From a virus: a stretch of 20,544 nt of DNA. Below the pieces are notes generated by a model that did no database searches, was not told the DNA's origin, and worked only from the letters and a program-made list of their open reading frames with translations. Each line of letters begins with the position of its first letter. The first letter of the stretch is position 1. Location of the stretch: positions 1-20,544 of the IMG/VR virus record IMGVR_UViG_3300046002_002981; one strand, 5' to 3'. Position numbers and translations under genes: made by a program. Below are positions 2,361-20,544 of this stretch, in pieces.

Positions 2361-2825
2361 TTATTTATAAGGAATATATTTTGTATCACCATTCTTTTTA
2401 ATGGCTTTTAAGATTTGCTTACGCTGTTTACCATTAGCCTTATAACTAACATGTACCCATGAAGGATTAGTATCATCACCAAACTCCCAAATAAGCTGAT
2501 CAAAATTTAAATTATCTTTTATGTATTTAAAGATTTCACTATTCTTAATTGCTGTTCCATCCATGTCAATATCAAAAGCTTCACCTAAACAATGTTGACT
2601 AGTTAATGATGTACCAGGAACAAGTCTATTTAACTTCTCACTTCTATATCCTGAACTTATATGTATTGGAACTTTAAAATGTTCTCTAATTGGTTGAAAG
2701 ATATTAGTTGCTAGTATTTTTAAGCTTTCTAAATGTTTTTCTGTTGGCATATTATCTATACCACTTCTTTTAGCAGATTCACTTCTAGTCACTTCTGACA
2801 AATCTAAATTCTCTGATAGTTTCAT
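2361..2825 (-). CDS. Peptidase M15 (M15A/M15_3-type) endolysin
   Basis: A 154-residue zinc peptidase predicted to cleave peptidoglycan stem or cross-link peptides. The M15 signature SxHxxGxAxD is present as SQHCLGEAFD (residues 76-85), giving zinc ligands His78 and Asp85. The third ligand, His125, is in WVHVSY, and Glu114 in QLIWEF is the likely catalytic acid. ISSGYRSEKLN (56-66) is the conserved substrate-site strand. The length fits a single catalytic domain with no separate cell-wall binding domain. There is no signal peptide, so export would depend on a holin. The start ATG overlaps the stop of the preceding two-TM gene (ATGA, 2822-2825), implying translational coupling. This is the most secure member of the lysis cassette. 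Confidence 0.9.
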   Translation of the reverse strand: MKLSENLDLSEVTRSESAKRSGIDNMPTEKHLESLKILATNIFQPIREHFKVPIHISSGYRSEKLNRLVPGTSLTSQHCLGEAFDIDMDGTAIKNSEIFKYIKDNLNFDQLIWEFGDDTNPSWVHVSYKANGKQRKQILKAIKKNGDTKYIPYK

Positions 2826-3031
2826 TTCTTAAATATCTTTTCAGCTGAGGTTAATCCTAAACATCCAAAAGCCAATAAGGCTACTGATTCTACTAATATT
2901 GTTGATGGTGCAGTGTGTTCTTCACTAAACGAATTATGGTACATAGTAACGCATAAAGCTATTACACATAACAATCCACATAAACGCTTCATGCTTAGAC
3001 TTCCACTTTCATCACAAAAAAACTGTTTCAT
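2822..3031 (-). CDS. Two-TM small membrane protein, possible holin or antiholin
   Basis: Sixty-nine residues with two hydrophobic segments (about 15-31 and 43-61) joined by a polar, acidic loop (NSFSEEHTAP). There is a short N-terminal tail, FFCDESGSLSMKR, and a basic end (EKIFKK). Size and topology match class II holins or phage-holin partner proteins. The gene is fused by an ATGA overlap to the M15 endolysin, the classic position of a holin. Another holin-like protein is encoded upstream (4117-4455), so this one could be a second holin, an antiholin or a pinholin. The family was not identified; the assignment rests on topology and position. Confidence 0.6.
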   Translation of the reverse strand: MKQFFCDESGSLSMKRLCGLLCVIALCVTMYHNSFSEEHTAPSTILVESVALLAFGCLGLTSAEKIFKK

Positions 3032-3032
3032 A

Positions 3033-3467
3033 TTATTTAATTTTAAAGTCCTTATTAATACCTATAGAGTATGATGCAAATGTATCTCCAAAAGCACTCT
3101 GAGCACCATAACTTAAAACAAATGAATATTCTTTTTTTAATGGTATTGTATAATTGAAATCATATTCCATCGTAATATCTTTATGATAGTAAAAATATCC
3201 AATAGCTGCACTTACACTAAACCTTTCATAAATAGGAAAGGTGGCCATAGCTTCTTGATAAAAATCCTTTCTGTCAAATGTCCACCAACCACTATTAATT
3301 CCCACTGCTGTATTCCCAAAATACTTTCCCACTTCAATAGTTCCACCTAATAAGTTTTTAGTGTCCTGAAGCTTAGTATCAAACGCTACATTAGGAGCAG
3401 CCATTATATAATACTGAGCCTTTGATTCTAAAGCAATAAAAAATAATAAAATAAATATTAATCTCAT
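3033..3467 (-). CDS. Small secreted outer-membrane beta-barrel protein
   Basis: A 144-residue product with a clear signal peptide (MRLIFILLFFIALESKAQ, cleavage probably after AQ). The mature part is a series of alternating hydrophobic/polar strands separated by charged turns. It includes GGTIEVGKYFGNTAVGIN, SVSAAIGYFYYH, EYSFVLSYGAQSA and the final ASYSIGINKDFKIK. About eight strands fit a small barrel of the OmpA-transmembrane or Bacteroidota OMP type. Its start overlaps the preceding gene by ATGA (3464-3467), and it ends 1 base before the next. A phage-coded outer-membrane protein inside a lysis cassette could help breach the outer membrane, or could block superinfection. Neither can be decided from sequence. 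Confidence 0.6.
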   Translation of the reverse strand: MRLIFILLFFIALESKAQYYIMAAPNVAFDTKLQDTKNLLGGTIEVGKYFGNTAVGINSGWWTFDRKDFYQEAMATFPIYERFSVSAAIGYFYYHKDITMEYDFNYTIPLKKEYSFVLSYGAQSAFGDTFASYSIGINKDFKIK

Positions 3468-4120
3468 TTCTGTTTAACTGCCACTTTTCTTACTGCCACC
3501 TTTTTAACTGCCACTTTTCTTAGTGGTTTCTTTGGTAAAGCAGGTTTCTTAAACATATCATAAACAATAGAACCTAACAGAGTAATAGCAAGTGCAATTG
3601 CTCCTATTATAAAACTAGAAAACTTATCAAGAAGAGAAATCATTTCTTTGGTTTCTCTTGCTCCAATTTTAGTTTGTATATCTATTAATTCATTTACATA
3701 TTTTAATACAGGATAGATTTTTGCATCCATTTCTTTAGCTTCATCATCTGTAATAATTTCATCTAAAGTAATTTTTACAAAGAATTCATCTGCTATCTCA
3801 ATATACATTTCAGCTTTTTGGCTTATTTCTTTTTCTTCTGGAGTTTGATATGTATTTAAATAAGCAGCCCACATTGTATCTGTTATTTCTTTTTCTTTTT
3901 GAATAGAAATTAAATCAATCTTACCACCCTTTATTACTTTAATTTGATCTTGTATAGTTGATCCATAATAATCAAACTTCCTACTTAGGTAAGGTTGTGG
4001 AACTAATCTATCTTCATAAATACTTGTAGCACTTTGCTTTATAGTATGTTCTACATATTTACCAAATCCTGCAATAGCTAAAATTATAGCAGTTAATATA
4101 ATGAGTAATATATTTTTCAT
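3464..4120 (-). CDS. Two-TM protein with MCP-type four-helix-bundle (4HB_MCP) periplasmic domain
   Basis: Topology of 218 residues: TM1 (4-20), a long helical extracytoplasmic domain (about 21-166), TM2 (168-188), and a short basic cytoplasmic tail (189-218). The helical domain begins with YEDRLVP (35-41), the hallmark of the 4HB_MCP ligand-binding domain of chemoreceptors. It continues with the WAAYLNTYQTPEEKEI segment (84-99), which also fits that family's W..Y...TPEEK pattern. HAMP, methylation helices and signalling hairpin are all absent, so it cannot signal through CheA in the usual way. The tail carries three copies of R/K-K-V-A-V (201-215). It sits between the LydA-like holin and the barrel gene, with ATGA overlaps on both sides, so a part in timing or sensing for lysis is possible. 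Function is not established. Confidence 0.65.
   Translation of the reverse strand: MKNILLIILTAIILAIAGFGKYVEHTIKQSATSIYEDRLVPQPYLSRKFDYYGSTIQDQIKVIKGGKIDLISIQKEKEITDTMWAAYLNTYQTPEEKEISQKAEMYIEIADEFFVKITLDEIITDDEAKEMDAKIYPVLKYVNELIDIQTKIGARETKEMISLLDKFSSFIIGAIALAITLLGSIVYDMFKKPALPKKPLRKVAVKKVAVRKVAVKQK
3476..3520 (-). repeat. Three tandem 15-base units encoding R/K-K-V-A-V
   Basis: The 3' end of the four-helix-bundle gene contains three 15-base units that differ only at a few bases. They translate as RKVAV, KKVAV and RKVAV. They make a short basic, amphipathic tail predicted to lie on the cytoplasmic side of the inner membrane. Confidence 0.8.
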
Positions 4121-4455
4121 TTCCTTCTTCTTGTTGGTTTAGGTTGCTCTTTTTTTATAAAAGACATTGGGTCAGCAGCAAACTGTCCACTTAGTTTTAG
4201 CACTCCATTTATTATCTCAGGACTATTTAACCCAACCAGTCCATAGGTAATAGCTTTATACATTGAACTAATCTCAAATTGCTCCATCACAAACCATGCA
4301 ATCAAAGATGCTATCATTGCACTTATCATCTTTTTTGTTACATCTATTCCTGATTTATTCTCACTTGTTGTAACAAGTCGAGCAACCATTCCAGCTGCAC
4401 CAATGAGTAAAACTACCCACCCCCCCTCTAAAAAATTTTTTATAAAATTTTCCAA
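4117..4455 (-). CDS. Putative holin, LydA/holin superfamily III-like
   Basis: Residues 12-28 form a first TM segment (GWVVLLIGAAGMVARLV). It is followed by a Lys-containing cytoplasmic or short periplasmic loop, a second TM at 42-60 with the MEQFEI end, a third weak segment at 65-82 (ITYGLVGLNSPEII), and a strongly basic tail (KPTRRRK). This order resembles Phage_holin_3_3/LydA proteins, which make the inner-membrane lesions that release endolysin. The frame opens only at 4473, just after the upstream stop, and has no ATG before the first TM. The start is therefore most likely TTG at 4455-4453. The stop overlaps the next gene's ATG (ATGA). The 112-residue length is normal for the family. Confidence 0.6.
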   Translation of the reverse strand: MENFIKNFLEGGWVVLLIGAAGMVARLVTTSENKSGIDVTKKMISAMIASLIAWFVMEQFEISSMYKAITYGLVGLNSPEIINGVLKLSGQFAADPMSFIKKEQPKPTRRRK

Positions 4456-5301: not shown

Positions 5302-8300
5302 ATGATTATGCCTTACAGTTTTACATATTTCAAACCAGAAGTTAAAGAATGGTTTATTTCTAATGTGCCCATCTCATACAGAGTGTTAGATGTAGGCCCT
5401 GGAATAGGTACATACTCAGATATTTTACGTTCATCAGGATATAAATTAGATGCTATTGAAATCTTTGAGCCTTATATTGAGAAATACAATCTTAAAGAAA
5501 AATATGACAATGTTTATATTGGTGATATTACATTATTCAATATTGATGATTATGATTTTATTATACTTGGAGATGTATTAGAACATCTAAAGGTGGATGA
5601 TGCTGTAAACTTGATCAATTCAATTATTAATAGTGGTAAGGAATGTTTAGTAGCTGTACCATATAAAATGGAACAAGGAGAACATGAGGGTAATATATAC
5701 GAAACTCATCATCAACCAGATCTAACAATAGATGTGATGAAAGAGAGATATAGTAAATTAGAATGTATATATAACAATGAATATTATGGATATTATACGT
5801 ATATAAATATAAAATTTGAAAAAGCATATGTATTATATGCAAATGCATCTTATTTTGACACAGTGCTATCTTGTGTAAAATCTATAAAGACATTTAGTGA
5901 TGTTCCTGTTATAGTATATATGCTTAATTCTAAGCTAAAGATTGATGGAGCTCTTACAATAAATTGGGAATGTGACGTAGATATCATTCATAAACAGAAA
6001 TATATAGATAGAACGAATGATAAAGTGTACAAGCTGTTAATACAACGTCCACTTATTGTTAAAGATGCTCTAATGAACTATGCCAAATCTGTTGCTTATA
6101 TAGATGCAGATAGTGTAGCTACAAAATATGTAGACAATATATTTACAATGTTTGATAATAAATCTGTTCATCCATATTTTGTAGAAGGTATGTATGAATA
6201 TTTATTAATTAATGGTAGAGGAGGTGCAGCTAGTAGAAAAGATCTATCTACAACACTAGAACATCCAGCATGTGAGTTATTTAATGTTAACCAATATGTA
6301 AGACAGAAATATAGACAAACTGGTTATTTTGTATCTGGACAGAATTGTATAGAGTTTTTAGATGAGTGGTATAACATGTGCATTCATCCAGAAGTGTTAG
6401 CCCACCATACGCATTATGCTCCCTATCATGAAGAAACTATTGTTAATGTTTTATTGTGGAAGAAGAACATACATACAGGTCTTCCTTACATATATATGAA
6501 TGGATCATATGATACTATCAATGAAGTGTATGACACTATTGGGTTTAATGGTAAAGATAATACTGTTAGAGAATGGGTGAAGATTCCTAAGACTAAATCA
6601 AATTTATTATTCTTTCATGGAGAAAAAGATTCTGTAATAATGAATAAAATGATAGCTAAACTAAATAGTAAATTAAAAATATTGTTTTTAGCACCCCATT
6701 TATCTACAGGAGGAATGCCAGCATTCTTATTAAAAAGAATAGAGGCTTTGAAAAGCAATAATGATGTAGAAATATTTGTTGTAGAGTATCAATGCTATAG
6801 TATTGATTATGTTGTACAAAGAAATCAAATAATGAACATTGTTAATCCAAACTTTCGTACACTATGGGAGAATAAAATGGAACTGTTTGATGTTATAAAT
6901 GATTGGAAACCTGATGTTATTCATATAGATGAAATGTCTGAGAGATTAGATAGGGAAATGATCGTATCATTATACAATCATAACAGATCATATCGTATCA
7001 TTGAAACTTGTCATGATGTATCATTTAATCCAAATGATAAAATGTTTCATCCAGATGCATATGCTTTCTGTACACCTCATCACTTAAAGACATTTAATAA
7101 CACCATTTCTTATAAACAAGTGATTGAGTTTCCAATAGAGGATTTGAAGAATAAAAAATGTATATGGGATGAAGCTATGATGGATCTAGATTTTGATTTC
7201 TCAAAAGAACATGTTGTAAATGTTGGACTATGGACTTCAGGAAAGAATCAAAAAGAAGCTGTTGAACTAGCAAGACAAATGCCTGATGTACAGTTTCATT
7301 TTATAGGAAACATGGCTCCTAACTTTAGAGACTATTGGCATCCAATAATATTAGATCTTCCAGATAATTGTAAAATATGGGGAGAACGTGATGATGTTTA
7401 TAAATTCTTAATGGCCTCAGATGTATTTATGTTTAATAGCACTTGGGAATGTAATCCTTTAGTTATTAGAGAAGCTATTGGTCATGAGTGTAAAATATTA
7501 GCTAGAGATTTGCCACAATATTGTGGAATGTTTGATGGATACATTACACCAATAGGTGATAATTTAAAAGAACAATTAGAAGAAGCATTAGAACAGCCTG
7601 TTACATACACTATTCCTACTAATCAGTTTATTAATTTTAGAGACAATCACATTGCTTTATATAAACAAGTGGTTAGTAGTGCTACCCAGATGAGCAATGT
7701 AAGTATCAATCAACATTTTGTCAACAATCCATTTCTTGAAATAAAAGGAATTTCTGATAGTGTATTTAAAGTATGTTTTTATGATGAACATGATGTTCTA
7801 CAATACCATAACACTATAAAAGCTAATCATTGGGTGAAGCTCAATAGACAATGGTATACTAAATGGTCAACTAAAGTGTGGGAGAACGATGATGTGATAT
7901 ATAATAATGTATTAAGTCTAGAAAACAAAAGAGTTTATATTGCTTTTGATAGCTCTTCTCTTGGAGATACTATAGCCTGGATACCTTATTGTTTAGAGTT
8001 TAAGAATAAACATAATTGCGATGTTATTGTAAGTACATTCCATAACTATTTGTTTGAGAATGTATATCCAGAACTTGAGTTTATAAAGCCAGGAACACCT
8101 GTTAGTAACATCTATGCTCAATATAATTTAGGTTGGCATTATGATATTAATAAGGAACCAGCTTTACCAAATACTATAAAGCTCCAACAAGCTGCAACTA
8201 ATATATTAGGTCTTGATTTTGAGGAGATTAAACCTAGGATTGCATTCACTTCTGGTAACAAATTTGATAGTAAATATGTTACAATAGCAACTAACTCCAC

Positions 8301-8745
8301 AGCTGGGTGTAAGTTCTGGACCAAAGAAGGATGGCAAGAAGTGATTAATCATCTAGTTAAAGAAGGATATAAAGTGATTAATGTGTCTAAAGAAAAGAAT
8401 CCTTTTGATAACTGTACACAACTAGAAGACTATTCTATGAATAACACTATAAACACCATATATTATAGTCAGTTTTTCATAGGACTCAGCTCAGGCCTCA
8501 GCTGGTTAGCGTGGGCTCTTGGTAAACAAGTGGTGATGATTGCTAACTTCAGTGAAAAAGATCATGAGTTTAGTTGTATCAGGATAACAAATGATACATT
8601 GTGTCATGGATGTTGGAACAATCCTCATTATAAATTTGATCGTGGGGACTGGGACTGGTGCCCCAAACACAAAAATACCCCTAGACATTTTGAATGCCAT
8701 AGAGGTATATCTGCTAATGATGTAATTGTTAAACTTCCTCTGTAG
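5302..8745 (+). CDS. Four-domain methyltransferase/glycosyltransferase ending in a TibC/Aah-type O-heptosyltransferase
   Basis: A 1147-residue fusion. Domain 1 (about 1-165) is a class I SAM methyltransferase fold: motif I VLDVGPGIG (28-36), acidic IEIFEP after strand 2, and FIILGDVLEHL (87-96). Domain 2 (about 172-440) is a GT-A glycosyltransferase with metal motif DAD in SVAYIDADS (263-271). Domain 3 (about 457-790) is a GT-B/GT4-like unit with an STGGMPAFL nucleotide loop (468-476) and the ECNPLVIREA donor motif (716-725). Domain 4 (about 803-1147) follows the TibC/Aah autotransporter heptosyltransferase family along its length: a leading beta-domain, SLGDTIAW (886-893), GLSSGLSWLAWALGK (1061-1075), and Cys1101, 1104, 1120, 1132 spaced like the TibC iron finger. 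That family uses ADP-heptose to O-glycosylate Ser of adhesins. No signal peptide, so cytoplasmic. It is the sole plus-strand gene, with its own promoter. ATG 5308 is an alternative start. The substrate is unknown; virion fibres or host surface proteins are the main options. Confidence 0.85.
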   Translation: MIMPYSFTYFKPEVKEWFISNVPISYRVLDVGPGIGTYSDILRSSGYKLDAIEIFEPYIEKYNLKEKYDNVYIGDITLFNIDDYDFIILGDVLEHLKVDDAVNLINSIINSGKECLVAVPYKMEQGEHEGNIYETHHQPDLTIDVMKERYSKLECIYNNEYYGYYTYINIKFEKAYVLYANASYFDTVLSCVKSIKTFSDVPVIVYMLNSKLKIDGALTINWECDVDIIHKQKYIDRTNDKVYKLLIQRPLIVKDALMNYAKSVAYIDADSVATKYVDNIFTMFDNKSVHPYFVEGMYEYLLINGRGGAASRKDLSTTLEHPACELFNVNQYVRQKYRQTGYFVSGQNCIEFLDEWYNMCIHPEVLAHHTHYAPYHEETIVNVLLWKKNIHTGLPYIYMNGSYDTINEVYDTIGFNGKDNTVREWVKIPKTKSNLLFFHGEKDSVIMNKMIAKLNSKLKILFLAPHLSTGGMPAFLLKRIEALKSNNDVEIFVVEYQCYSIDYVVQRNQIMNIVNPNFRTLWENKMELFDVINDWKPDVIHIDEMSERLDREMIVSLYNHNRSYRIIETCHDVSFNPNDKMFHPDAYAFCTPHHLKTFNNTISYKQVIEFPIEDLKNKKCIWDEAMMDLDFDFSKEHVVNVGLWTSGKNQKEAVELARQMPDVQFHFIGNMAPNFRDYWHPIILDLPDNCKIWGERDDVYKFLMASDVFMFNSTWECNPLVIREAIGHECKILARDLPQYCGMFDGYITPIGDNLKEQLEEALEQPVTYTIPTNQFINFRDNHIALYKQVVSSATQMSNVSINQHFVNNPFLEIKGISDSVFKVCFYDEHDVLQYHNTIKANHWVKLNRQWYTKWSTKVWENDDVIYNNVLSLENKRVYIAFDSSSLGDTIAWIPYCLEFKNKHNCDVIVSTFHNYLFENVYPELEFIKPGTPVSNIYAQYNLGWHYDINKEPALPNTIKLQQAATNILGLDFEEIKPRIAFTSGNKFDSKYVTIATNSTAGCKFWTKEGWQEVINHLVKEGYKVINVSKEKNPFDNCTQLEDYSMNNTINTIYYSQFFIGLSSGLSWLAWALGKQVVMIANFSEKDHEFSCIRITNDTLCHGCWNNPHYKFDRGDWDWCPKHKNTPRHFECHRGISANDVIVKLPL

Positions 8746-9941: not shown

Positions 9942-12770
9942 TTAATTAGATAAGTTATTTATTGATTGTTTTAATTCTTCTATTTGAACTTGTTGTTCTT
10001 TAATACCATTAATCAATACAGGTATTAATTCTAAATAAGTCATTGCTAACATATCTTTACCTTTCATAGTATGTACAGCTTCAGGTATAATACTTTGAAC
10101 TTCTTGGGCACTTAAACCTAAATGATTATCTGTATCACCATGTCTTATATCTCCTATTGGTAAATCATAGTTATATTTAATTGGGTTAATCTGTAATATT
10201 TCATTTAATCCGTATGTAACAGGTGTTATATTCTTTTTATATCGAATATCGGAAACACTACCAACAGTAGCATACAATCCATACATATACATAATAGCAC
10301 TTCCACCATTTCTATCTAATAATAAATTCCATCCACCATAATCAGCATATACGTTCCAACTATTAGACCCCATATATAATGTACAAGCGGTTGCAGTTTG
10401 TAATTGGGTTAAGAAGTTTCCATTCCCATAAAAATTAACAGCATTTAATACTGATGTACCATTTGCATCTAAATAATAACTTGCATCGTCTGAATCATAG
10501 AACCTACTAGCGTACATTGAACCTGCAACCGTAAGATTACCACTCATGTCAAGTTGTAATCTATTAGCTCCTGCTGACCATCCACCTATTCTAAATACGT
10601 TATCAGAATCCAATCCCATATTTACAGCATAATATCCTCCTCTATGGAAAGACATTATAGCACCACTTCCATTATTTGAATACGCTTGTAAAGGAGGTGA
10701 GTCTGATGATGTATTTCTATTTGATACAAAATAATTTGTTCCTGTCCAATTATAAGCACCACCTACTGCACTTGATATGCTATTAACATTACCTGCGGTA
10801 TAGCTACTAACATTACCACTATGTAATATTTGATACCATGTACTATTCCAAGAACTGTTTATACCATTTCTTAATGCTAAACCTGGCAACCCTGATGCGT
10901 TTACTCCACTCCAATTACAGAAAGCTAATTGATATGAAGAGTCTCCTGTACTTGCAGATGTACCATCCCAAGGAGCATATGTCATCACACCTGCATAGTT
11001 ACCTGTTGCTCCTGTTATAAATGTTGCTGATGCAAAATTATAACTTAAAGCCCTCGCTGTTGTATTTGGTAATGGAGCTGTATTAGGATTTCTTCCTCCA
11101 TCAGGAGAAGATACAAAAGTAGTATAAGTAGCAGTACCTGCATTACCACCAATATTTAATGAAGCTGCTGTTCCTGTTAGTCCTGTTCCTGCTCCGCTAA
11201 ATGTAGGAGCTGTTACTGTACCACTAAAACTTGAATTTCCATTTTGATAAAAAATAAATTGTGGTGAGGCAGTTGCCCCAAAATGAAACCCAATGTAATC
11301 AGTTCCGCCTTGATAATAACCTAATCCGTAAGGAGTTGCATTACCAAATGACCAAATTCTATTATATCCTGCTGAAAATGTTGAACTTACAAACCCACCA
11401 CTAGCACCACCTCCTGCAGCAATATATCCATTAGCTGTTATAACTCCTGTATTTGAAATTGAAGCAACATTTGTTCCTGCAAAATTTGTACCTCCTACAC
11501 TAGCGTATCTAAAAATCCAACCTCTCGTAACAGTATCCATTACAAAATATGTGGCATAATCACCTGCAGTAATTGCTCCATGAACACCCCACCCTGTACT
11601 TGTTGAATTTTTAAATCCAATATATGATGTAGTAGTATCACCTGCCCCCCATAAAGTTATACCTCCACCTGCACTTGCAGCATTGTTTGCCGTATTTACA
11701 TGTAAGCTATAACCTAAATTTGCTTCTGACCCGCTAAATATTGATGCATTTAAAGTACCTGTACTTGATTGAATAGTAATTGCAGCACAAGAGTATGCTA
11801 TAGTTCCTATACCATTTGTATAAGCAGATCCCCAAAGGACTTGATAAGCTGCTACATCAGTTCTATTAGGCAAGTAAGTGACAGAACCTGCATTACCTGT
11901 TGTTGTTGTAGCAGTAGTAGCTGTAGTAGCACTATCAGCTAGTCTAGCAGAGTCTACTCTAACACCATAAGTATTAGCTCCATTCCATCCCATTAATGTA
12001 GGTAATAATGCACTCCAAGCTATTTGTGAATTTGTATTATTTACTGAAGTTCCACTTGGAGAAGTACTATTTGATGCATCAAATATAACGTGAGAATTAC
12101 TATAGTTTTTCCATGCTAATAAACCTACAACATTACCTAACACTCCTGTACCAGACCAGTTTGATTGACCTGAAGAAAGTGCAGTTGCTGTAGCTGCATT
12201 TCCTGATGTACTATTTGTTATAGCTCCGACTGCATTTACATTAGCTGCTGTTAAGGAAAGTGTACCACCTAATGTAATAGTACCTGATGTTGTTATTGTA
12301 CCACCTGTAAGTGTAAGTCCACTCACTGTACCTGCCGTAGCTACTGATGTAACAGTACCTGTATTACTAGTTTTATTATTGAATGTTGTCCAATCTGCTG
12401 CACTTAAAGCACCTCTATTGGTAGCACTTGCAGTAGGCACGTTTAACGTAATTACAGGAGTTGTAGTGCTGTTTGCTACTGTACTTGATAAGTCAGTACC
12501 TGTTGTGCCTAAAGTAATAGCAGCAACACTTGTAACTGTTCCTACACCTGCTCCACCTACTAAAGCTAATGTACCTGTAGCACTTGGTAAAGTATAAGAG
12601 TAAGTACCGTTAGACAAAGTAGATCCAAAGGTAGCTACTCCTGTAAACTTACTTGTTGTACCCACCTCAAGTTTAAATGAACCACTAGGAGTTACACCTA
12701 CACCAATGTTTAATGATGCATCAGAAGTGATGGCAGGAGATAATCTTCCTAAATTATTTGGTAAGCCCAT
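9942..12770 (-). CDS. Tail fibre with C-terminal S74 self-cleaving chaperone
   Basis: A 942-residue beta-structured fibre. The N-terminal half has low-complexity Thr/Ser/Gly strands of the phage-fibre type: SYTLPSATGTLAL, GTVTSVATAGTVSGLTLTGG, and a GALSAADWTTFNNK motif. Middle repeats are seen in many fibres, including WYQILHSGNVSSYTAGN (about 655-671). The C-terminus from Ser840 is the intramolecular chaperone (peptidase S74) domain: SDIRYKKNI with the Ser-Asp cleavage pair, GLSAQEVQSIIPEAV, and a final coiled coil, IKEQQVQIEELKQSI. In the family this domain trimerises the fibre, then cuts itself off before Ser, so about 839 residues should remain on the virion. There is no collagen repeat. 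It starts 1 base after the previous fibre's stop. The role is host adsorption. Confidence 0.85.
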   Translation of the reverse strand: MGLPNNLGRLSPAITSDASLNIGVGVTPSGSFKLEVGTTSKFTGVATFGSTLSNGTYSYTLPSATGTLALVGGAGVGTVTSVAAITLGTTGTDLSSTVANSTTTPVITLNVPTASATNRGALSAADWTTFNNKTSNTGTVTSVATAGTVSGLTLTGGTITTSGTITLGGTLSLTAANVNAVGAITNSTSGNAATATALSSGQSNWSGTGVLGNVVGLLAWKNYSNSHVIFDASNSTSPSGTSVNNTNSQIAWSALLPTLMGWNGANTYGVRVDSARLADSATTATTATTTTGNAGSVTYLPNRTDVAAYQVLWGSAYTNGIGTIAYSCAAITIQSSTGTLNASIFSGSEANLGYSLHVNTANNAASAGGGITLWGAGDTTTSYIGFKNSTSTGWGVHGAITAGDYATYFVMDTVTRGWIFRYASVGGTNFAGTNVASISNTGVITANGYIAAGGGASGGFVSSTFSAGYNRIWSFGNATPYGLGYYQGGTDYIGFHFGATASPQFIFYQNGNSSFSGTVTAPTFSGAGTGLTGTAASLNIGGNAGTATYTTFVSSPDGGRNPNTAPLPNTTARALSYNFASATFITGATGNYAGVMTYAPWDGTSASTGDSSYQLAFCNWSGVNASGLPGLALRNGINSSWNSTWYQILHSGNVSSYTAGNVNSISSAVGGAYNWTGTNYFVSNRNTSSDSPPLQAYSNNGSGAIMSFHRGGYYAVNMGLDSDNVFRIGGWSAGANRLQLDMSGNLTVAGSMYASRFYDSDDASYYLDANGTSVLNAVNFYGNGNFLTQLQTATACTLYMGSNSWNVYADYGGWNLLLDRNGGSAIMYMYGLYATVGSVSDIRYKKNITPVTYGLNEILQINPIKYNYDLPIGDIRHGDTDNHLGLSAQEVQSIIPEAVHTMKGKDMLAMTYLELIPVLINGIKEQQVQIEELKQSINNLSN

Positions 12771-12771
12771 G

Positions 12772-15555
12772 TTATTTGATTAATGCTTTTAATTCTTCTA
12801 TTTGTGATTGTTGTTCTTGTATTGCTTTTACTAATACAGGTACTAAGTTTGAATAATTCATTGCGTAATATTCCTCTTCATTATCAATATCAGCTTGAAC
12901 AGATTCTGGTATTATTGGCAAAACATCTTGAGCTATAAAACCTAAGTTTACTATTTTACGTTCATCTATTTTAAAATTAAACTTTTTAGGTATCAATTGT
13001 AATACCTCATTTAATCCATAATTGCATATTTCAATATTTTCCTTTCTTCTTTCATCTGAATTTGTCCAAGTACCACCAGTTGTTTGATAACCTACTTTTG
13101 TATAAGAAGAACCCCCATAATAAAATGTTGCATACTGATATGAAGCGTCAATTTGAGTAACCCATGCTCTATTATTTGATTGGTCATAAATTTGGACAAA
13201 AGGTGCAGATTGAGCAGTGTTAGATGAACTACCTCCTTGTATATTTATGCCTGGAGCATTTGAATTTGTATTAATTTCAGTTTTGTATTGGTTTGATGTT
13301 CCAGCCGTCACACTACTAGAGAACGTAGCTTCTCCTGTGGATGCTAATTGAAAAATATTAGCAAATCCTCCGCTATATGCTGGTCCTGCAAAAAAAACTA
13401 AATTACCACTTGCTGTACCTCTATCTGATATCGCCCACCTAATGTTGCCTTCTGTATATCCATTACCATAACCCAAAAATATCTCTGACACTTCAGCAGT
13501 TGCTGAACTATTTATAAACAATTCACCTCTATTAGCTGTCCTAATTCCTAAACCTAATCTTGAATTTTGAACCGCTAACGCCCCACTAAACCTCCCCGTA
13601 CCATTAACATCTAGCTTGTAACCTGCGTCTGTTGTTGTTCCTATTAATACGTTACCACCTGATGTGATGGTCATAGCGGAAATATTTGTACCACCACCAT
13701 CCACAACTCTTAATTGCATAGCAGTAGCTAAACTGCTATTATATTGATTACCAAAATAAACTCCTGCGTTACCACCTGTTGAATTTAATCCATAAGTAAT
13801 TGAATTAGTATATGAAAAATTAGGAGATGTTCCAAAACTTCCTGCAGGTAAATAAAATCCTCCATTCGCAGTAACAGTTGAACTAAACGTAGCTGCTCCT
13901 GTGGATGTAACACTAAATTTAGATGAAGTTGTACCACCCCACCAAGTAAACAAAGGAGTACCTCCTGTATTATAATTAAAATCTATTGTACCACCCGCAT
14001 CACCTCCTATTTTTGCACCTAATAAAGTTAATAAGCCACCTCCATTAATTGTTAAACTACCTGTAAGCGTACCTCCTGTCAATGGTAAGTAACCACTCAA
14101 AGCAGATGTCAAAGCTAAAGTACCTGTAGCTGATGGTAGCGTATAGGTGTACGTTCCGTTTGATATTGTTGTACCATTTACAACTAAATTACCACCCAAC
14201 CAAGTTTGTGTAGTTGCAGCATTTCCTATCCATGTTTTATTACTATCGGTTGCTGAAGTGCCTACTGAATTATAACCTATGAATATATTATTTGAGCCTG
14301 TTGTATTAGCGTTTGTACCTAATGAACCAAATCCTGCCTGATAACCTAATGCAACATTTAATGAGCCTGTTGTATTAGAATATAATGCGTTTGTTCCTAA
14401 TGCAGTATTAAATGAAATTCCTCCACCACCACGACCAACAGTCATAGTAGTATTTACTGAAATATCTGAGCTGAATGTTTTTGCTCCTGCAAAAGTTTGC
14501 GTTCCTGTTGTGATTACACCTCCAAAACTTGCATCAGCAGGTTGTAGATTTAAAAGACTTCCAACAAGACTCGCTGCATTTGCGTTTGGTGTTATGCCTA
14601 TTGCAGTTAATGATATAGATAACCCTGAAGTACCAGAGGTACCTGTAGTACCAGAAGTTCCACTTGTACCTGTTGTACCACTTGTGCCTGTTGTACCACT
14701 TGTACCTGTTGTACCACTTGTACCTGTTGTACCACTGGTACCAGATGTACCAGAAGTTCCATCAATTCCTGTAGTACCACTTGTACCTGTGGTTCCACTT
14801 GTACCACTAGTTCCTGTTGTACCACTTGTACCTGTGGTTCCTGATGTTCCATCAATTCCTGATGTACCACTTGTTCCTGTAGTTCCACTGGTACCAGATG
14901 TACCTGTAGTGCCACTAGTTCCTGTTACACCTGTTACATATGCCACTACATCCACTATATCACCCAATAAACAAGGAGTGGCTAATGTTATACTTGTACC
15001 ATTGGTTGCTGTAAATTCTGAAGGAGCAAGTTTAGAACCATTATAATAAACATCTACTTGTCCTACATTATATGTTACAGTGAATACTGTTTGTCCTGCT
15101 GTTGCTGTAAATGTGGTTTCATTTCTTGCATTAGGATCAGGAGTGAGTCCACTAGTTCCACTAGTTCCACTTGTACCAGAAGTTCCTGCAGACCCACTTG
15201 TTCCAGATGTACCATCTATTCCACTTGTTCCACTAGTTCCTGTAGTACCAGATGTGCCTCCAGTTCCTGTTGTACCACTAGAACCTGCTGAACCACTAGA
15301 TCCACTTGTGCCAGAACTACCAATCACCCCTGGAACCCCTGATAAATTAATTGTCCAAGAACAACAAGTTCCTGTTCCTTCATAAGAAAGAGGTGTGAAA
15401 ACTAATGCTCCAGTACCAATATTGTAAGAAACTACTTGTCCAGATATATAATTACAATTAGAACAATACAGAGTGATAAAATCACCAGTGATATAAGACA
15501 ACCCTGAAGTTACAGTTATTGAAATATTACAATATGGGGAAGGTATGCAACTCAT
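12772..15555 (-). CDS. Chimeric collagen-like/YadA-head-like tail fibre with S74 chaperone
   Basis: A 927-residue modular fibre. Residues 8-75 are a divergent copy of the beta-module found in three other fibres, here with extra Cys (CSNC, TCCSW). Residues 79-136 are a collagen-like run. Residues 144-207 are a widespread phage tail domain (TATAGQTVFTVTYNVGQVDV ... NGTSITLATP). Residues 209-311 are a longer Gly-Thr-Ser/Thr run. Residues 384-445 contain TALGTNALYSNTTGSLNVALGYQAG and SNNIFIGYNS, the left-handed beta-roll type of YadA heads. Later come LIGTTTDAGYKLDVNGTGRFSG and the S74 domain, with the Ser833-Asp pair in SDERRKENI, LGFIAQDVLPIIPESV and a closing coiled coil. After trimerisation the last 95 residues should be released. 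Adsorption fibre; the strongest case in the window of a mosaic built from others. Confidence 0.85.
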   Translation of the reverse strand: MSCIPSPYCNISITVTSGLSYITGDFITLYCSNCNYISGQVVSYNIGTGALVFTPLSYEGTGTCCSWTINLSGVPGVIGSSGTSGSSGSAGSSGTTGTGGTSGTTGTSGTSGIDGTSGTSGSAGTSGTSGTSGTSGLTPDPNARNETTFTATAGQTVFTVTYNVGQVDVYYNGSKLAPSEFTATNGTSITLATPCLLGDIVDVVAYVTGVTGTSGTTGTSGTSGTTGTSGTSGIDGTSGTTGTSGTTGTSGTSGTTGTSGTTGIDGTSGTSGTSGTTGTSGTTGTSGTTGTSGTTGTSGTSGTTGTSGTSGLSISLTAIGITPNANAASLVGSLLNLQPADASFGGVITTGTQTFAGAKTFSSDISVNTTMTVGRGGGGISFNTALGTNALYSNTTGSLNVALGYQAGFGSLGTNANTTGSNNIFIGYNSVGTSATDSNKTWIGNAATTQTWLGGNLVVNGTTISNGTYTYTLPSATGTLALTSALSGYLPLTGGTLTGSLTINGGGLLTLLGAKIGGDAGGTIDFNYNTGGTPLFTWWGGTTSSKFSVTSTGAATFSSTVTANGGFYLPAGSFGTSPNFSYTNSITYGLNSTGGNAGVYFGNQYNSSLATAMQLRVVDGGGTNISAMTITSGGNVLIGTTTDAGYKLDVNGTGRFSGALAVQNSRLGLGIRTANRGELFINSSATAEVSEIFLGYGNGYTEGNIRWAISDRGTASGNLVFFAGPAYSGGFANIFQLASTGEATFSSSVTAGTSNQYKTEINTNSNAPGINIQGGSSSNTAQSAPFVQIYDQSNNRAWVTQIDASYQYATFYYGGSSYTKVGYQTTGGTWTNSDERRKENIEICNYGLNEVLQLIPKKFNFKIDERKIVNLGFIAQDVLPIIPESVQADIDNEEEYYAMNYSNLVPVLVKAIQEQQSQIEELKALIK
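14623..14931 (-). repeat. Gly-Thr-Ser/Thr repeat, second block of fibre 12772-15555
   Basis: About 34 consecutive Gly-X-Y triplets (residues 209-311), mostly GTS and GTT with three GID triplets. The DNA is a 9/18-base degenerate minisatellite with frequent synonymous changes. Confidence 0.9.
15148..15321 (-). repeat. Gly-Thr-Ser repeat, first block of fibre 12772-15555
   Basis: About 19 Gly-X-Y triplets (residues 79-136), with occasional GSA, GTG and GID triplets, between the Cys-rich beta-module and the tail domain at 144-207. Confidence 0.88.
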
Positions 15556-15602: not shown

Positions 15603-17363
15603 TTAGCAATCAAGCGTAGTGTCTGAACCAATCACTCCTGTTCCAGGATTTAAGTTATAAATATCTGGAGGGCCTGATGATCTAACCACATAATCATATC
15701 CTGTTACACTGATGGCAAGACCACTATCATAGTATATAGTATCACCAGTGGTTAACAATACACTACTAGAATAAACTGTTACAATTACAGCTGAACAAAT
15801 TGTTGCTGTAGAATTATCTAATCTTACTGAATAAGAATACACTCCTGGAGGAAGAGTTGTTGTTGTAGTAGTTGTTGTTGGAGGAATGGTAGTTGTTGTT
15901 GTAGTGGTTGTACACTCAGCTAAAGGAAATGAAATACAATCATTGGATGTTCCTTCATAAACAACACTTTCACCTGATGTACCACTTGTTCCACTAGTAC
16001 CAGTCGTTCCACTAGTTCCTGTGGTGCCACTTGTTCCAGAAGATCCTGTAGTTCCAGATGTTCCACTTGTTCCAGAAGATCCTGTGGTGCCAGAGGTACC
16101 TGATGTACCATCTATTCCAGAAGATCCACTTGTTCCTGTAGTGCCAGAGGTACCTGATGTACCTGATGTACCTGTAGTACCAGATGTTCCAGTGGTACCA
16201 GATGTACCATTTGTACCATCTCCACCAGAAGCACCATCAAGATTTACATACCATATAGGGAAACTTCCTGATCCAACAGTTCTTGTAGGAGCACCAAATA
16301 TTAATATTCCTGTTAAAGGATCATAAGATATCACTTCACATTCTTGGAAGTTATTAGCATCTCCTGCTATAATTATAGATTGTGCTACTGAGTAAGACAA
16401 ATCTAAATCCACTGTTAATGTTCCTGCGTTACCTAAAACAAAACTTGTTACAGAAGTGGTAGCATATCTATCTCCTTGTATTCCTGAGCTTCCTGATGTA
16501 CCAGATGTAGCAGACGATCCACTTGTTCCAGTGGTGCCTGATGTAGCAGATGTACCACTTGTACCTGATGTAGCAGAAGAACCACTAGAACCTGATGTTC
16601 CACTAGTACCAGAGGTAGCAGAGGTTCCAGAGGTGCCTGTTGTACCACTTGTTCCTGTAGTACCACTTGTTCCACTAGTTCCATCTATACCACTTGTACC
16701 AGAGGTTCCACTAGTACCTGTAGTGCCACTAGTTCCTGTTGTACCACTAGTTCCTGTGGTTCCACTTGTACCACTAGTACCACTAGTTCCACTTGTACCA
16801 CTAGTACCACTAGTACCACTAGTGCCTGTTGTTCCAGAAGTACCTGTAGTTCCACTAGTTCCACTACTACCACTAGTTCCTGTAGTTCCACTTGTTCCAC
16901 TTGTTCCTGTAGTTCCTGAAGTTCCTGTAGTACCAGAAGTTCCTGTTGTTCCTGAAGTTCCACTAGTTCCTGTTGTACCTGAAGTACCTGTTGTGCCACT
17001 TGTACCTGTTGTACCTGAAGTTCCTGTTGTACCACTTGTACCAGATGTACCTGATGTTCCACTTGTACCTGATGTGCCACTCGTTCCTGTAGTTCCACTA
17101 GTGCCACTAGTACCTGTGGTACCACTAGTACCTGTGGTTCCACTAGTACCTGTAGTTCCTGAACTACCAGACGTACCTGAAGTACCAGAAGTTCCACTAG
17201 TACCAACAGCAATATCTCCAATAGCAGCATCAATTTTTTGAAGTGCTAATTGAAGATCATCATTGGTATTAATTCCTGTATATATTAAATTAGCTCCTTC
17301 GTAATGTACACAAAGAGCATTTAATATTACAGGACAAGGAGTTGCTTGACAAAGAATACTCAT
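15603..17363 (-). CDS. Long collagen-like fibre with poly-Thr hinge and Cys-ended C-terminal domain
   Basis: 586 residues. N-terminal anchor (1-52: ILNALCVHYEGANL ... LQLALQKIDAAIG), homologous to the starts of the proteins at 17374 and 18885. Then about 81 Gly-Thr-Ser/Thr triplets (54-296), the longest run in the window, with four Gly-to-Ala breaks near its end. Next is the exchangeable beta-module (297-382), then about 28 more triplets (380-465). A short linker with Cys476 and Cys484 leads to two Thr octamers separated by IPP and followed by LPP (485-506). The last domain (507-586) ends in Asp-Cys and is a close copy of the end of 18068-18883. There is no S74 or known trimeriser. It is probably a long flexible fibre on the virion. 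Thr and Ser make up more than half of the protein, so heavy O-glycosylation would be possible. Confidence 0.75.
   Translation of the reverse strand: MSILCQATPCPVILNALCVHYEGANLIYTGINTNDDLQLALQKIDAAIGDIAVGTSGTSGTSGTSGSSGTTGTSGTTGTSGTTGTSGTSGTTGTSGTSGTSGTSGTSGTSGTTGTSGTTGTSGTTGTSGTTGTSGTSGTTGTSGTTGTSGTTGTSGTSGTTGTSGSSGTSGTTGTSGTTGTSGTSGTSGTSGTSGTSGTSGTTGTSGTTGTSGTTGTSGTSGTSGIDGTSGTSGTTGTSGTTGTSGTSATSGTSGTSGSSGSSATSGTSGTSATSGTTGTSGSSATSGTSGSSGIQGDRYATTSVTSFVLGNAGTLTVDLDLSYSVAQSIIIAGDANNFQECEVISYDPLTGILIFGAPTRTVGSGSFPIWYVNLDGASGGDGTNGTSGTTGTSGTTGTSGTSGTSGTTGTSGSSGIDGTSGTSGTTGSSGTSGTSGTTGSSGTSGTTGTSGTTGTSGTSGTSGESVVYEGTSNDCISFPLAECTTTTTTTTIPPTTTTTTTTLPPGVYSYSVRLDNSTATICSAVIVTVYSSSVLLTTGDTIYYDSGLAISVTGYDYVVRSSGPPDIYNLNPGTGVIGSDTTLDC
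15969..16226 (-). repeat. Gly-Thr-Ser repeat, second block of fibre 15603-17363
   Basis: About 28 Gly-X-Y triplets (residues 380-465) lie between the beta-module and the poly-Thr hinge. They include GSS, GTN and GID substitutions. Confidence 0.88.
16476..17204 (-). repeat. Longest Gly-Thr-Ser/Thr repeat in the window (about 81 triplets)
   Basis: Residues 54-296 of the 586-residue fibre. Most units are GTS or GTT, and some longer blocks (GTSGTTGTSGTT) recur. Four ATS triplets replace Gly by Ala between about 16500 and 16630. Codons vary synonymously (GGA/GGT, ACA/ACT/ACC, AGT/TCT/TCA). Confidence 0.92.
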
Positions 17364-18884: not shown

Positions 18885-20544
18885 TTAGTTTAACTTAGCT
18901 TTTAATTCCCTTATCTCTTGCTGTAATTGAGCAATCAATATAGTGTGTACATCTAAATATTTAACTGAGGTTACATCCCTGTCTGTTAGTTCAGGCATTA
19001 ATGAATGTATCTGCTCTGCAGAATAACCATATCTTACATCTTTATTTTTATCTGTTTTACGTATATATTGTATAACATCTAAATTAAGATTAGTTGATGG
19101 ATTTGTTTTAAGTATATTTTTTCCTGCAACGCTTGAACTTTCAAAGAATGCTGAGGCAGTTACACTGCTACTAAATGAAGCAGATGTTCCTCCTAGAGCA
19201 CCAGTTAATGTTCCACCACTTAATGGTAAATATCCACTAAGAGCAGCTGATGTTATAAATCCTGCAGGATTTGAAGAATCATATGGAGTGTATCCAAGAG
19301 CACTTGTAACTTGTCCAGATGTAAGTGTTAAAGTTCCTCCTAACGTTAATGATCCAGATGTACTTACTGAACCTGAAAGTGTAATTCCACTAACAGTGCC
19401 TGTTCCAGATACAGATGTAACTGTACCAACATTCCAAGTTCTATCTGCAGAAAGTGTTTGAGCATTTCCATTTATTGTAAGAGTTCTTGATGTAGGTACA
19501 CCACCTAGTCCTGTTAATGTGTAATTAGGAACATTTAATACATTACTTAATAATGTAGCAGCTCCACTATTTCCAGTGGTAGTTAAACTTCCTAATAGCC
19601 CACTTGTACCTGATGTACCTGAAGTACCAACAGCTCCTGAAACTCCTGATGTACCACTTGTACCTGATGTACCAGTGGCTCCTGGTGTACCAGTGGCTCC
19701 ACTTGTACCTGATGTACCACTTGTTCCTGTATTACCATTAACTCCACTAGTTCCACTAGTTCCAGATGTTCCTCTTGTACCTGAAGTACCACTAGTGCCT
19801 GTGGTACCACTAGTACCTGTGGTTCCACTCGTACCTGTTGTACCAGAAGTTCCATTAATACCAGAGGTGCCATTAATACCAGATGTACCACTTGTTCCAT
19901 CTCCTCCAGAAGCACCTGCTAAGTTTACTATCCAAGCTGACTGTGTACCAGATCCCACTGTAGTAGAAGGAGCACCAAATTGTAAAGATCCAGTTCCAGG
20001 ATTGTAAGCAATAACACTAGATTCTTGATAATTACTTATATTATAAGCAATAATTATAGTTTGTGCAACACTATATGCTAATCCTAAATCAACTGTAATT
20101 GTTCCAGCATTTCCTAAAGTGAATGATGTAACTGATGTTGTATAATATTTATCTCCTGATTCACCTGAAGTACCTGTAGTTCCACTACTACCTGATGTAC
20201 CACTAGTACCTGTAGAGCCACTTGTACCACTAGTGCCACTTGTTCCTGTTGTACCAGAAGATCCACTAGAACCACTTGTACCACTTGTTCCACTACTACC
20301 TGATGTTCCTGTTGTACCACTTGTTCCACTACTTCCACTGGTTCCTGATGTACCATTAACTCCTGATGTACCATTGATTCCTGATGTACCATTGATTCCA
20401 GAAGTACCAGAAGTACCTGAAGTGCCAGACGTACCAGCAGTTCCATTATATGAATCAAATGTATTATTAATTTTTATTAAGGCTTCCTCAAGGGAATCCA
20501 TAGGATCAACATCTATATTAGATAAGTATTCTCCATTATATAAT
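18885..20544 (-). CDS. Collagen-like fibre with degenerate S74 C-terminus, 5' end beyond the window
   Basis: The frame is open to the right edge. The 14 codons before the first Met in the window (ATG 20501) encode LYNGEYLSNIDVDP, matching the anchor of the protein at 17374, so the true start lies outside. Counting from that Met: collagen-like run 20-116, exchangeable beta-module 116-201, second run 200-303, then phage-fibre strands GTVTSVSGTGTVSGITLSGS, LGYTPYDSSNPAGFIT and LSGYLPLSGGTLTGAL. The end resembles the S74 chaperone (RYGYSAEQIHSLMPEL, 490-505; coiled coil LIAQLQQEIRELKAKLN). However, the Ser-Asp-x-Arg cleavage motif is absent: KNILKTNPSTN stands there instead. It should trimerise but not self-cleave. 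The gene overlaps nothing and is 1 base from the next. Confidence 0.8.
   Translation of the reverse strand, partial: LYNGEYLSNIDVDPMDSLEEALIKINNTFDSYNGTAGTSGTSGTSGTSGINGTSGINGTSGVNGTSGTSGSSGTSGTTGTSGSSGTSGTSGSSGSSGTTGTSGTSGTSGSTGTSGTSGSSGTTGTSGESGDKYYTTSVTSFTLGNAGTITVDLGLAYSVAQTIIIAYNISNYQESSVIAYNPGTGSLQFGAPSTTVGSGTQSAWIVNLAGASGGDGTSGTSGINGTSGINGTSGTTGTSGTTGTSGTTGTSGTSGTRGTSGTSGTSGVNGNTGTSGTSGTSGATGTPGATGTSGTSGTSGVSGAVGTSGTSGTSGLLGSLTTTGNSGAATLLSNVLNVPNYTLTGLGGVPTSRTLTINGNAQTLSADRTWNVGTVTSVSGTGTVSGITLSGSVSTSGSLTLGGTLTLTSGQVTSALGYTPYDSSNPAGFITSAALSGYLPLSGGTLTGALGGTSASFSSSVTASAFFESSSVAGKNILKTNPSTNLNLDVIQYIRKTDKNKDVRYGYSAEQIHSLMPELTDRDVTSVKYLDVHTILIAQLQQEIRELKAKLN
19593..19904 (-). repeat. Gly-Thr-Ser repeat, second block of fibre 18885-20544
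   Basis: About 34 Gly-X-Y triplets (residues 200-303 from ATG 20501). They include GIN, GTR, GNT, GAT and the only Pro-containing triplet, GTP, so this block is more varied than the others. Confidence 0.88.
20154..20441 (-). repeat. Gly-Thr-Ser repeat, first block of fibre 18885-20544
   Basis: About 32 Gly-X-Y triplets (residues 20-116 from ATG 20501), including three GIN/GVN triplets near the start and several GSS units. Confidence 0.88.

Follow-up and report, generated by a model that had tools for sequence, protein, structure and literature searches.

The window analyzed in this study, a stretch of 20,544 nt, corresponds to positions 1–20,544 of IMG/VR record IMGVR_UViG_3300046002_002981, a fragment from an uncultured phage. 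Its central feature is an ORF with a stop-free translation encoding a multi-domain enzyme, which stands alone on the plus strand, while every clear neighbor in the window is located on the minus strand (Table 1). These neighbors comprise tail-fiber and lysis genes, the latter being represented by an M15 endolysin and a weak match to a holin adjoining the enzyme gene (2361–4455). Long ORFs of the VPLVPVVP type on the plus strand between 14510 and 17241 turned out to be antisense artefacts of GTS/GTT repeats and not genes. Family searches of the window revealed no autotransporter family among its gene products, and a search against PHROGs assigned the enzyme to no family. Full-length relatives with identities of 57–100% were present in other viral contigs.

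Table 1. Coordinates, strand, and supporting evidence for the features identified in the window.
Feature	Coordinates	Strand	Evidence
MT/GT-A/GT4/TibC-like enzyme, whole gene	5302..8745	+	ATG start, 1147 aa; ORF, profile, PDB, and model
Domain 1 (aa 1–165), class I SAM methyltransferase (MT)	5302..5796	+	PF13489, 29.8 bits vs. cut-off 27; 3cc8
Domain 2 (aa 166–455), GT-A glycosyltransferase	5797..6666	+	Invariant DxD (D268, D270), HGEK, model
Domain 3 (aa 456–795), GT4 glycosyltransferase, ECNPLVIREA at 716–725	6667..7686	+	PF13692 above cut-off; BshA/MshA/WaaG-type folds
Domain 4 (aa 796–1147), TibC-like: N-terminal beta-barrel (strands ~800–870) and GT-B core	7687..8745	+	TIGR04414, 4rap
Codon of D889, equivalent to TibC catalytic base D110	7966..7968	+	Alignment with TibC
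Codon of T1049, replacing TibC R286 (adenine contact)	8446..8448	+	Alignment with TibC
Iron-finger segment, C1101, C1104, C1120, C1132	8602..8697	+	Alignment with TibC
Tail-fiber protein, C-terminal S74 chaperone domain, without collagen run	9942..12770	-	Family searches, triplet count
Collagen-like GTS/GTT tail-fiber protein, S74 domain, 57 triplets, proposed acceptor	12772..15555	-	
Collagen-like GTS/GTT tail-fiber protein, 95 triplets, proposed acceptor	15603..17363	-	
Collagen-like GTS/GTT tail-fiber protein, 70 triplets, proposed acceptor	18885..20501	-	

Matches above cut-off to the Pfam families Methyltransf_23, Glyco_trans_1_4, and Glyco_transf_9 were obtained for the deduced protein, and Pfam, NCBIfam, and PDB searches placed the methyltransferase at residues 27–100, the GT4 domain at about 635–768, and a TibC/Aah-type domain at 821–1143. 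Profiles, PDB matches, alignment, and modelling bore out the order methyltransferase, GT-A, GT4, and TibC-like domain proposed earlier in a sequence-only reading of this locus, the motifs of which were also found at the residues claimed, namely VLDVGPGIG (28–36), D268/D270, ECNPLVIREA (716–725), SLGDTIAW (886–893), and GLSSGLSWLAWALGK (1061–1075), as well as Cys at 1101, 1104, 1120, and 1132. In the full-length model (pLDDT 87.9, pTM 0.50), the relative placement of the domains is unreliable. The methyltransferase domain, which is missing from some relatives, was 33–35% identical to proteins annotated as methyltransferase in the mycobacteriophages Phrappuccino, Settecandela, and prophiGD91-2. 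For the second domain, no Pfam match was obtained in the window protein; its assignment to the GT-A type is based on the invariant DxD, which was kept together with HGEK in an alignment of 26 members, and on a confident model (pLDDT 90, pTM 0.90). The best folds for this model were retaining GT-A enzymes of the GT6, GT8, and GT24 type at a TM of about 0.5, so that no single CAZy family was assigned, and one weak sequence match was to a Skp1 galactosyltransferase.

The C-terminal domain matched NCBIfam TIGR04414 with 258.1 bits (E 1.2e-76; curated cut-off 200), whereas LPS heptosyltransferase I (TIGR02193) yielded 23.5 bits, far below its curated cut-off of 185.3. Identification as an LPS heptosyltransferase was therefore rejected, and the better fit to generic GT9 LPS heptosyltransferases that would have spoken against a TibC-like unit was not seen. 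A GT-B core and the Glyco_transf_9 match are shared with the GT9 enzymes WaaC and RfaF, which are not known to have a barrel or an iron finger. In the PDB sequence search, the TibC crystal structure 4rap was matched at E 1.6e-49, and identity to TibC amounted to 34% over 297 aligned residues. In a fold search with the full-length model, the 21 top-ranking structures were TibC chains, at a TMt near 0.8 and with about 370 columns superposed at about 2.5 Å, and the model of domain 4, N-terminal barrel included, matched 4rap at a TMt of 0.82, so that profile and structure both upheld the TibC-like unit. Residues D110, T226, K230, and W305 of TibC correspond to D889, T1000, K1004, and W1068, and C339, C342, C358, and C370 to the four Cys residues noted from the sequence, which are thus predicted to form an iron finger; these residues and the four Cys were kept in 35 of 35 close phage sequences. 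At the position of TibC P300, the window enzyme carries S1063, as Aah likewise has a Ser. All 42 phage ORFs scanned matched TIGR04414 (E up to 0.001). Thus, the barrel fold, the four conserved residues, and the four-Cys finger are shared with the BAHT enzymes TibC and Aah (TIGR04414, PDB 4rap/4rb4), a family whose hallmarks are a dodecamer and the transfer of heptose from ADP-heptose onto Ser.

Two features that define TibC/Aah are changed in the window enzyme. In TibC, R286 contacts adenine N1 and is credited with the preference for ADP, its mutation abolishes or largely diminishes activity, and the beta-hairpin thumb, which has a hydrophobic tip, is needed for dodecamer formation and activity (PMC4358343). 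At the R286 position, close phage sequences carried Thr (34/35) or Ala (1/35), in contrast to Arg in 91 of 93 bacterial sequences. Similarly, the thumb region (TibC 250–286) spans 37 residues in TibC and 36–37 in 91 of 93 bacterial sequences, but 27 in 35 of 35 close phage sequences, i.e., it is shortened by ten. Among 19 more distant phage entries, including a few identical or nearly identical sequences, the R286 position was occupied by R, T, A, V, I, or L, and six of them (two being near-identical) kept Arg. Loss of R286 is therefore the rule in the clade of the window enzyme, not phage-wide, and was discarded as a mark of all phage enzymes. Based on the Thr and the short thumb, we regarded the window enzyme as sister to the BAHT enzymes, with putative heptosyltransferase activity; it also differs by its fusion to three further domains, its separate clade, and its partner, a collagen-like fiber in place of an autotransporter.

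The use of ADP-heptose, as written in the sequence-only reading, could consequently not be maintained, since the Arg responsible for ADP preference is Thr and the dodecamer thumb is missing; to start the glycan, the enzyme probably draws on a different nucleotide sugar, either in place of ADP-heptose or alongside it. A true ADP-heptose O-heptosyltransferase with a new acceptor, in which T1049 still permits ADP binding, would agree with a TIGR04414 score above the equivalog cut-off, the kept catalytic residues, the Aah-like S1063, and the Arg retained by some distant phage members. We regard it as rather unlikely, though worth keeping in mind, as the residue exchanged throughout the close relatives is vital in TibC (PMC4358343). 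A TIGR02199 heptose-activation gene was also absent from the window, which is a fragment, and this search was uninformative, as TIGR02199 also responded in 11 of 14 control genomes, mostly to general cytidylyltransferase-like proteins.

Searching with a profile of domain 4 revealed relatives in 143 viral stretches, 80 of which were kept, and in 351 stretches of bacterial genomes. In a tree of 83 sequences, the bacterial enzymes and TibC were found on one long branch (support 100, length 0.7). On the opposite side were L097, the only cellular sequence there, and every phage sequence but L432, whose own branch was long. The tree separates the window gene from bacterial TibC/Aah and groups it with relatives that are mostly viral. 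When the four domains of the window enzyme served as blastp queries, the modules always occurred in the order MT–GT-A–GT4–TibC, with shorter forms lacking the methyltransferase, the methyltransferase and GT-A, or everything but the TibC-like domain, while in L050, L084, L089, L090, and L092 the missing modules were encoded by adjacent separate ORFs. Pfam analysis of 42 ORFs detected GT4-type domains in 40, Methyltransf_23 in 12, FkbM in four, and a DXD sugar-binding domain (Gly_transf_sug) in four. This nested truncation would fit a biosynthetic order from TibC outwards, as it would N-terminal gene truncation alone; fixed order, truncations, and split modules lend support to the suggestion that one polypeptide builds and caps a glycan. 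The arrangement is not unique but carried by many IMG/VR contigs, and UniProt contains a viral relative of 985 aa, A0A7S9XE01 (Virus NIOZ-UU157), which is shorter than the window protein and shares 56% identity with it across about 990 aligned columns. In addition, A0A6J5SVC1 from an uncultured Caudovirales phage is named 'Glycosyltransferase Aah/TibC'. From these two entries, the TibC domain in phages and most of the domain order had already been seen; both entries are known by database name only, and our search found no functional report on either.

The window contains 222 collagen-like triplets in long runs in three minus-strand fiber genes, with Thr at position X in 176 and Ser or Thr at position Y in 145 and 51, respectively. 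To our knowledge, such GTS collagen-like repeats are frequent in aquatic phage fibers and have had no explanation. Runs of (G[TS][TS])x6 or longer were present in the fetched flanks of 36 of 52 distinct enzyme loci, and in 23 of the 24 having at least 9.9 kb downstream, compared to none of 71 random viral loci (Fisher 7e-19), a control picked by an arbitrary 15-mer and not matched for habitat or host. For the reverse test, 42 viral contigs of at least 25 kb were picked solely by the DNA pattern GTSGTSGTSGTS. Of these, 15 encoded the enzyme domain (one, L337, was already in the domain-4 profile set), in comparison to 0 of 43 random contigs (Fisher 5e-6) and 1 of 39 Gly-Pro collagen contigs (Fisher 1.5e-4). 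All three p-values overstate the case, as phage loci share ancestry and are not independent, and the controls were not matched for habitat. The remaining 27 GTS contigs without a detected enzyme are fragments or reflect real absence. In contigs for which the coordinates of enzyme and repeat were both listed, the two were mostly no more than about 12 kb apart. Altogether, enzyme and collagen-like (Gly-Thr-Ser/Thr)n fiber genes predict each other in a strong reciprocal link. The autotransporter acceptor assumed by analogy thus gives way, in a window without autotransporter, to the collagen-like Gly-Thr-Ser tail fibers as the likely acceptor.

Among distant members, repeats were located a few kb from the enzyme in a 735-kb phage (LR756501) and in Microcystis phage Mel-JY01, a T4-like phage cultured on Microcystis elabens. 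In the latter (L175, PP395634.1; 836–2176 and 4750–8430), GTSG repeats adjoin a protein that is annotated solely as FkbM methyltransferase, yet revealed a TibC-like C-terminal domain; a prolyl 4-hydroxylase (at 147 kb) and a cytidylyltransferase-like protein are also annotated in this record. The cellular sequence L097, from an Arenicellales MAG, groups with the viral clade and encodes the TibC-like domain alone. Its gene starts 90 bases after a GTSGTT-repeat ORF with a lipoprotein-like signal, and this arrangement (L097:3593–5175) looks like a two-gene bacterial substrate/enzyme pair. No second cellular genome of this kind was found among 369 genomes of its class, and the GTS repeat was absent at 77 other bacterial loci. 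In Lentisphaeria genomes (L164 and L172), classical TibC/Aah-type genes were located near collagen-like GEKGDxGEQG repeats, another repeat type.

Genes next to the enzymes included an FkbM methyltransferase (L061), a sulfotransferase (L036), and a Skp1-type GlcNAc transferase (PF11397; L061), which would suit a glycan-decorating region. The PF11397 match in L061 (3290–4534) was strong, with homologs in L065, L069, and L094, and its product is possibly another protein-glycosylation enzyme of these phages. Homologs of the sulfotransferase near the TibC-like enzyme in L036 (12712–13530) were detected in about 11 loci, hinting at sulfated glycans.

Taken together, the homology to TibC and the reciprocal link to GTS repeats led us to consider it likely that the phage encodes a multi-domain O-glycosylation enzyme decorating its own collagen-like tail fibers, with donor sugar and acceptor both inferred. 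TibC glycosylates Ser, not Thr, in repetitive adhesin passengers (PMC4358343). By analogy, the TibC-like domain would transfer the first sugar onto Ser, perhaps Thr, of the GTS repeats, the GT4 and GT-A domains would elongate the glycan, and the methyltransferase would cap it. As a guess at the benefit, the fiber may be stiffened, protease-resistant, or masked, or adhesion to the host altered. Counting against this reading, the enzyme gene lies on the strand opposite to the fiber genes, so that the two are not co-transcribed.

Phage glycosyltransferases can act instead on the host envelope or on phage DNA, and superinfection exclusion is the usual role given to those in host-recognition clusters. 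Remodelling of host surface glycans (LPS O-chain or capsule) to this end would account for the resemblance of the GT4 and GT-A domains to envelope-glycan enzymes, and glycosyltransferases beside the tail fibers of pelagimyophages have been interpreted in this way (PMC7029224). In our case this appears improbable, because domain 4 belongs with the protein glycosyltransferase TibC and not with the LPS heptosyltransferases, the reciprocal link is specific to Ser/Thr-rich repeats and does not extend to Gly-Pro collagen, and the partner of the L097 enzyme is a GTS lipoprotein-like ORF. Modification of phage DNA bases by the glycosyltransferase/methyltransferase fusion, though DNA-acting phage glycosyltransferases are well known (PMC12619734), is highly improbable given that TibC acts on protein, the enzyme gene lies beside fiber genes, and the GTS-repeat link exists.

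Beyond glycosylation of the phage's own fibers by the window enzyme, we tentatively propose, with the chances somewhat against so broad a claim, that the TibC fold has a viral branch of wide occurrence. Its members would have shed the thumb, and mostly also the Arg that reads ADP, would have switched to another donor sugar, and would start the dense decoration of collagen-like Gly-Thr-Ser tail fibers with O-glycans, often as part of an assembly-line fusion ('glyco-collagen' on virions). Our literature search, which covered mainly open-access papers, brought up no description of a TibC-like enzyme in phages, a glycosylated collagen-like phage fiber, or the GTS link. The principle of phage-encoded glycosylation of virion proteins is shared with mycobacteriophages (Freeman et al. 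2023, as cited in PMC12619734), though the targets there are reported to be the capsid and tail-tube C-termini.

Phage tail fibers determine host range. If this enzyme family is dedicated to GTS fibers, many phage virions would be glycoproteins, glycosyltransferases beside phage fibers could no longer be taken as host-surface modifiers by default, and the TibC fold would not be confined to autotransporters. The cultured Microcystis phage Mel-JY01 makes the idea of fiber glycosylation directly testable.
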